Below are positions 3,878 to 57,921 of a DNA stretch of 64,000 nucleotides, piece after piece (position 1 is the stretch's first letter; each line of letters begins with the position of its first letter). The notes under the pieces are model-generated. The model saw only the letters and a list, made by a program, of their open reading frames with translations, searched no databases and was not told where the DNA came from. A program made the translations under genes and the position numbers. Origin of the DNA: Utricularia gibba (lineage: Eukaryota; Streptophyta; Magnoliopsida; Lamiales; Lentibulariaceae); NCBI GenBank assembly GCA_002189035.1, contig NEEC01000014.1, forward strand, positions 1,056,501 through 1,120,500, read 5' to 3'.

Positions 3878-5448
3878 ATGGCGTGTAGGCGCCTCGCGGC
3901 GGTGGGTTCACGCGTGGGAAGGGGAATGGGGTTTTCCGGTTCATCTTCCATTGGACTCGCGGCGACGGTTACCCATTTGCTTAGTTTTTCAACCAGAGGG
4001 GAGAAAGCGGAAATCGACAATCGTGGTGAATTGCTGTCCATTGTAGAGAATTTGTACGAACATCGCAGCTGGAAATTCCTGACTCAAAATTTTAGGTCAG
4101 TCAAGTTTTCGGACCCTATGATTCAATATATACTCTTGCAGCTGAAGGAACCGATTAATTCAAGGAAAGCCCTGAATTTCTTCCACTGGTGCGCGAAAGG
4201 AATGGGTTTGGAGCATGGGTATCAACGTATTCCATTATGATCCATATTCTGGCTAAAGCCAGGCTTGTTAAGGATGCCAGGATATTGCTTGAATCTGTTC
4301 TGAACAAAAATATTTTCCCTGATGGAGATTCTAAAGTTTTTGTTGTTTTGAATGCTTTACTTGATACGTATAATGTAGCAGATTCGGTTCCATTTGTTTT
4401 TGACTTGTTTGTGCAAACCTATGCGAAGTTAAGAATGTCTGATGATGTTCTTGCCGCTTGTAAGTTGCTGTCTGATCATGGTTTTATGTTAAGTGTGATT
4501 AGTTTCAATACATTGCTACATGTGACAGAGAAATCCAGCAACGTCGACCTGGCATGGAGAGTGTATGAGCATATGATCATTTGTAGGATATGCCCGAATG
4601 AAGTGACCATCAGAATCATGGTGGATGCATTATGCAAGAGCGGAAATTTAGAGAAGTTTCGTAATCTTGTCTCTAAGATGCACGGGAATAGATGTTCAGT
4701 ACCTGTGGTGATTGTGAATACTTTTTTGATCTATGAACTGATAAGAATGAATAGGATTGAAGAAGGGGTGAGATTATTGAGGTGGATGATGCAAAAAAAT
4801 ATGATCTTGGATAATATATCTTGTTCCTTGGTCGTGTTTGCCAAGATGAAGATGGGGGATTTTGCTGCTGCTCAAGATATTCATGATCAAATGCTTAAAA
4901 GAGGTTTTCCAGAGAATGCTTTCGTGTGCAGTCTATACATCGAGACTTACAGTGATAACGGAAGGATGGATGAGGCATTTGGGCTATTGGAGCAGATGGG
5001 GAAACTGCGATTGAGTCCAACAGAAGAAGCAATGAATAAGCTCTTCAAAGGTTGCTCGCGTATGCCCTTGGACAGTGGGGTCTTATATTGCAAGAGAATA
5101 GTAGAGCAGCAGCAGTTTGTTCCTAGTTGCTCAGCAGTGAATGAGATGTTTGAGAAGCTTTGTGAAAACGGGAAGACGAAGGATGCTGATGAGATAATGA
5201 CCAGTTTGTTGGATAAGGGATTCAAGCCTGATGAAAACACCTACTCCCATCTTGTTTGTGGCTATGGCAAAGAAGGCAAAACTGAAATGTTCCTGAAGCT
5301 TCTGTACGAGATGAAGCACCATCTAGGCATTCCGGTTTTGACTTCAATCGTTTCAAGACTCTCTGGCTATGGCCGTCTGGAAGAAGCAAAGAAATATGTT
5401 GAAGTAATGCAACCATGCCCTTCCCCTGTCACAGTGGAAAGGCGTTGA
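3878..5448 (+). CDS. P-class pentatricopeptide repeat protein, frameshifted in this sequence
   Basis: PPR proteins bind organellar RNA one base per repeat and act in processing, stability or translation in mitochondria or plastids. The protein opens at 3878 with an Arg-rich, acid-poor N terminus (MACRRLAAVGSRVG) suited to organelle targeting. It continues through helical repeats such as YSIMIHILAKARLVKDARILL, TIRIMVDALCKSGNLEKFRNL and TYSHLVCGYGKEGKTEMFLKL, and ends at 5448. No C-terminal E or DYW extension is present, so it is P-class, about 523 aa. The frame breaks at 4217-4219: the upstream frame reads LEHG then runs into a stop at about 4240, while the downstream frame resumes STYSIMIHIL. 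One extra G in the GGG run gives LEHGVSTYSIMIHIL, the normal PPR pattern. The break is either a sequence error or an inactivating mutation. Confidence 0.85.
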
Positions 5449-56442: not shown

Positions 56443-56705
56443 CTAGTGTCGATTGTGAATGGGATCAGGCCCTCTTTGAACCCTCCTTTTGCTGGAGCTG
56501 CTCGCATCGAACTCGCTGCCCTGAGTAGAACGATCTGTTCCCTCGTTGCCCCGGAGCGGTACGCACTCCGCGTCCGCAACGGCCTCCGATGGCAGTCCTG
56601 CCGGTCGACCGGCGCCGTCATGGTGACCAGGCCTCGGACTGTGGAAAGGGCTAAGCAAGCGAAGAAGAGGAAGAGTGCCATGTGACAGCAGTTGCGCGCG
56701 ATCAT
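56443..56705 (-). CDS. CLE peptide hormone precursor (CLE25/26/45-like), frameshifted in this sequence
   Basis: CLE genes encode short secreted precursors that release a 12-13 residue arabinosylated peptide read by LRR receptor kinases. On the minus strand, one frame from Met 56705 encodes a signal peptide (MIARNCCHMALFLFFACLAL, then STVRG). A second frame ends SSSSKRRVQRGPDPIHNRH and stop at 56443. RRVQRGPDPIHN (56452-56487) fits the CLE consensus with the G-P-D-P-I-H-N core and resembles CLE26 (RKVPRGPDPIHN) and CLE45 (RRVRRGSDPIHN) as I recall them. The usual second hydroxyproline context P is Q here. The span is 263 nt, one short of a multiple of three; one extra base joins signal and motif into an 87-aa precursor, the usual size. 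The most likely site is the CCCC run at 56549-56552. A short intron is the alternative, though most CLE genes have none. Confidence 0.75.
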
Positions 56706-57921
56706 CTTGTGGGTGGGGATATCGGTAGCCTTTCCACTGCGCTTCGATCCAGGCGCAAAAGCCCTCATAAGGACTCACAGGAGAATCCAGTGAATTGCGT
56801 TCAATCGTATCAGCGCAAATTGCAGCATAAGAATGTCAGAGGAAGAATAAAGATGGCTGGAACAAAACCCTCATGAAGTTAAGCATCTTTTCATTTTTTT
56901 TTTCAATGCGTTTATTTCAACTAATAATAGTAATAATTGCAAAACAAAATATGTAAATAATTGATTATTTTAAAAAAACATAAATTGTGAAGAAAATTAA
57001 ATGAAATTCAAAATATTTAAGAGAAAATGTCTTTTTTTCAAAAAAGAAAAAGAAGGAAATTTTTTTGATGAACCTTTCTGGTATGGTAAAGATTCCTTTC
57101 ATGGTTATGAGCCTTTCCATTCATGGGAGCAAATCATATATTTGTCTAAATAAGGGAGACAAATGCTATTCCTCACATCTGGAAGGACTAAATAGCAAAT
57201 TCTATGAACTATAAAAAAATCACTACAAAGTTTATTTTATTTTCCAATCTCTATTCCCACTGTTAGTCCCATGATCAATCCCTTCATACATTTTCCACTA
57301 GAATATATTTATTATATTTATATTCAATTTTATTTTAACCCTACCATTTAAAACTCATTATCAATTTAATTTTTCAGCTTTGATTCATAAAATTATTTTT
57401 AATCTATTTTCACTCAATGAATTCAAAATGCGATTTTTGAAATGGTTATTATTTCTAATTTTAGGTTAAAATAAAATATTTTTAATCTATTAAAACTTTT
57501 TTTACTTTGAAAATAAAATAATTAATTTTATAAATATGTAAACTCTAATAGATAATTCTCAATTTAAAAAAAATTTAAATAAATATGTACAATCATTTAA
57601 TAAGTAATTTTAAAAAATAATGAAAATATATTAATTAATTTAATATTTTGAAATTCATACCCTATGGGGGAGAAACGTGAGGGTTTGAATTATGAGGTAA
57701 AATACAGTGGAATGTTGGTTTCGTTGTCCATCAGAGGATCTGACACCCAAAACAAACTTGCAACAATGTGGATAGTTTCCGGTGACCACCCGAATCCGAA
57801 CCAGAGAAGGAGGCCATTAATAGCAAGAGTGAGATCTCCGGCAGCGGTAGTAGTAGTAGTAGGTGATGGGTAGCTCCATCTGAACGACAACGACGTCACA
57901 GTGAGAAATAACAGCTTCCGG
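56706..57921. other. AT-rich intergenic region between CLE and MYB genes
   Basis: Holds the CLE promoter (about 56706-56880) and then AT-rich sequence without coding potential to about 57660. The final 260 bp is the 3' UTR of the MYB gene. No additional gene is supported. Confidence 0.45.

Follow-up and report, generated by a model that had tools for sequence, protein, structure and literature searches.

A probable CLE25/26/45-like peptide gene divided between two reading frames in the genome assembly of Utricularia gibba

Background

The published Arabidopsis peptides CLE25 (RKVPNGPDPIHN), CLE26 (RKVPRGPDPIHN) and CLE45 (RRVRRGSDPIHN) all end in DPIHN (PMC5538625). In roots of Arabidopsis, CLE45 suppresses the differentiation of protophloem by way of BAM3, and the action of CLE26 is similar (PMC5538625). 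Position 4 of the published Arabidopsis peptides is occupied by Pro, by His (CLE16 and CLE17), by Lys (CLE20) or by Arg (CLE45) (PMC5538625). The SL4.0 assembly of tomato contains a one-base frameshift in SlCLE31 that Sanger sequencing showed to be an error (PMC9670457).

The locus described here lies in the window, the stretch of 64,000 nucleotides of the U. gibba genome that was analysed. It is a new entry in a known family, and an ordinary member of it.

Results and discussion

A signal peptide and a CLE motif in separate frames

The locus occupies the minus strand from 56705 to 56443; with both the ATG and the stop codon included, its length is 263 nucleotides, one nucleotide fewer than a multiple of three. 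In frame A, the ATG at 56705 starts MIARNCCHMALFLFFACLALSTVRG, a strong and typical signal peptide (56631 to 56705), and upstream of it the in-frame ATG at 56768 offers another possible start. Frame B (offset 2, which is one base back relative to frame A) terminates as SSSSKRRVQRGPDPIHNRH-stop, with the stop codon at 56445-56443. Thus, in the assembled sequence, KRRVQRGPDPIHNRH and its stop codon are found in the other frame, 70-odd codons downstream of the ATG of the signal peptide. The C-terminal 12-residue CLE motif, RRVQRGPDPIHN, is located at 56452 to 56487, is preceded by SSSSK, and is followed by RH and the stop codon (56443 to 56451).

Between the signal peptide and the motif is a variable propeptide region (56488 to 56630), and the change from frame A to frame B occurs somewhere within it, as if one base were missing. 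The sole run of four or more G or C residues in the gene is a GGGG at 56549-56552, which makes it a candidate site for a lost base; to place the break exactly there is plausible but only a guess. A weak trend in GC3 favors frame A up to about 56560. Codon usage was derived from GRAS genes, which are a poor fit to a G+C-rich CLE gene, and it neither located a switch nor gave any frame a positive score. A Pfam search returned nothing useful for either half of the gene, a PDB sequence search gave no match for it, and a search of the genome for another copy or haplotype of the locus found none.

Both halves very probably are real and belong together, because of the motif pattern, the paralogue-like flanks and the results of shuffling. 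The degenerate CLE core pattern VxxG[PS][DN]P[IL]H[NH] has 13 matches in the 100 Mb assembly and none in the reversed control. Most of the 13 sites have a signal peptide roughly 35 to 100 codons upstream, and a stop codon at the end of the motif or a few codons later. The SSSSKRR..IHNRH-stop context of the window motif follows the same flanking pattern as that of its paralogues. When the 300 nucleotides upstream of the motif were shuffled and scored for an ATG-initiated open reading frame resembling a signal peptide, such a frame arose in just 0.5% of shuffles. The hydrophobic core of the signal peptide scores 2.78 (Kyte-Doolittle, 12 residues), which matches the 2.69 to 2.78 obtained for five further CLE precursors encoded in the genome. 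The location of the two halves in different frames and the lack of support from codon usage are what would be expected if the motif or the signal peptide were a chance string and no gene were present, but the pattern counts, the shared context of the motif and the rarity of such signal peptides among the shuffles leave this very remote. The initial annotation had read the locus as a CLE dodecapeptide with a strong signal peptide upstream in another frame, and hence as a CLE gene split across two frames, and the analysis agrees with it on all of these points.

Related CLE genes in the same genome

The nearest intact paralogue, L014 (C255:2675812, RRVYRGPDPIHN), reads KRRVYRGPDPIHNKC, with DPYQSQKRRVYRGPDPIHNKC-stop in a single frame with its own signal peptide. 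It has 11 of the 12 motif residues in common with the window peptide, and both genes have a Lys before the motif, a basic residue after it, and two residues before the stop codon. In contrast to the window gene, L014 has one intact frame and a Tyr in place of Gln at position 4, and its propeptide cannot be aligned. Conserved neighbors were not found in 20 kb around L014 or in 10 kb around L001. L009 and L018 each carry SSSKRQVRKGSDPIHNKS-stop in a single frame. Reading of the genome loci revealed no intron at the corresponding place in the intact CLE genes of the window gene's group.

Thirteen other CLE genes were read, and at least two of them contain a one-base break. Comparison with its intact relative L019 shows that L008 is missing a base close to a CCC run. 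In the CLE9/10-like gene L005 (G000:C2:6041239), the break falls within the motif, where a one-base shift places KRLVPS and GPNPLHN in two frames; L005 was matched by a pattern one base too short, because the gene itself is without one base.

Some of these CLE genes are located near GRAS genes. L013 and L014 (G000:C255:2671023 and 2675812) are different CLE genes on opposite strands, separated by 4.8 kb and located next to the GRAS gene L026. Also, a DELLA-like GRAS gene occurs on the same contig at a distance of about 5 to 10 kb from each of four CLE genes of the RLVHTGPNPLHN/RFVHSGPNPLHN type (L008/L048, L011/L047, L017/L046 and L019/L023). This repeated CLE-DELLA neighborhood probably stems from genome duplication.

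One-base losses across the assembly

The GRAS domain is usually contained within one exon, and GRAS genes are normally without introns. These genes were used as an independent test set for frame breaks, in which a break was counted if the gap was less than 60 nucleotides or the matches overlapped. Frame breaks that leave no room for an intron are present in about 14 of some 40 GRAS genes, and about 25 are open in one frame. Twelve of the 15 breaks in these 14 genes belong to the class in which one base is missing (binomial p = 0.035). Fitting to intact relatives favored a missing base at 11 of 14 GRAS sites, five of which span C runs of 5 to 6 residues, and the sites of lost bases often lie within a run of G or C. 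The broken genes include three DELLA genes, in each of which the long reading frame before and after the break is otherwise uninterrupted. Some GRAS copies have the look of genuinely decayed genes. Because some of the breaks lie away from homopolymers, a part of them may represent true gene decay.

Within the window, a PPR gene (3878-5448, plus strand) is split over two frames near 4220 at a GGG, CATGGGTATCAACG, as if one G were missing. A frame break is therefore not special to the window CLE gene, and many such breaks occur in the assembly. Their frequency, as estimated from the GRAS genes, is roughly one per 3 kb of coding sequence, so one break in a small CLE gene is unremarkable.

Explanations for the frame break

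The halves in two frames are most likely an effect of the assembly, because the assembly drops single bases in many genes. We consider it somewhat probable that the locus is a continuous CLE25/26/45-like prepropeptide gene from which the assembly dropped one base, somewhere downstream of the signal peptide and upstream of the CLE motif, although an error at this one site is inferred. In the plant, the gene would be a single intronless reading frame of about 87 codons. If a base were restored at the GGGG at 56549-56552, a change of the kind called for by most of the GRAS breaks, both halves would be joined. By analogy with the family, processing of the secreted precursor would release RRVQRGPDPIHN.

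A true frameshift, either in a duplicated CLE copy that has lost its function or in a null allele of the sequenced plant, is unlikely but deserves serious consideration. The several related CLE copies in the genome may be redundant with one another, and the GRAS breaks outside homopolymers, together with the copies that look decayed, suggest that genuine lesions may occur. In so short a gene, a real and recent frameshift would look the same. Against such a loss of function, the motif, the SSSSK flank, the stop codon and the signal peptide are all intact and no further lesions were seen in this short gene, and a single break is explained well enough by the general rate of one-base loss in the assembly. 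Alternately, an intron between the signal peptide and the motif might restore the frame on splicing. Introns are known in some CLE genes (13 in poplar; PMC4776436), and the best candidate here, 56627-56521 (107 nucleotides), has an acceptor, CTACTCAG|GGC, that ranks at the 94.5th percentile among the AGs of the window. However, CTG|GTCACC makes a poor donor, at the 68th percentile of all GTs, the G+C content of the candidate, 67% against 42% for the window, is unlike that of usual plant introns, the remaining in-frame pairs of donor and acceptor score worse, and the intact CLE genes of the same group have no intron at that place. An intron is thus quite improbable, and a working gene whose halves are joined by this unusual G+C-rich intron to yield a CLE26/45-type ligand with Gln4 is highly improbable.

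With this locus, the plant's set gains one likely phloem-type CLE ligand, whose gene automatic annotation would miss. Before a frame break in a gene model from this assembly is interpreted as biology, the model should be examined for lost bases.

Comparison with known CLE peptides

Gln at position 4 had initially been singled out as a notable ligand variant, a view that the comparison does not sustain. Gln is also present at this position in L017 of the same genome (RLVQTGPNPLHN), and because position 4 varies in the published list as well, Gln4 alone is no surprise. The exact RRVQRGPDPIHN and close Gln4 or Tyr4 variants were not found in the searchable main text of the literature.

The choice of CLE25, CLE26 and CLE45 as the appropriate comparison was well founded, since the window peptide has the same DPIHN ending as the published peptides (PMC5538625). 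By its motif, the window gene is an ordinary member of this CLE25/26/45-like (phloem) group. A phloem-type function is inferred from the activities of CLE45 through BAM3 and of CLE26 (PMC5538625), and the peptide might act on BAM-class receptors in phloem, as those two peptides do. CLE25 of Arabidopsis has the GPDPIHN core in common with the window peptide, and differs at positions 2, 4 and 5. CLE26 of Arabidopsis is identical to it at 10 of 12 residues, including RGPDPIHN, and the differences are Lys2 to Arg and Pro4 to Gln (CLE26 sequence from PMC5538625). Arabidopsis CLE45 is likewise identical at 10 of 12 residues, which include RRV and DPIHN, and differs from the window peptide by Arg4 to Gln and Ser7 to Pro.
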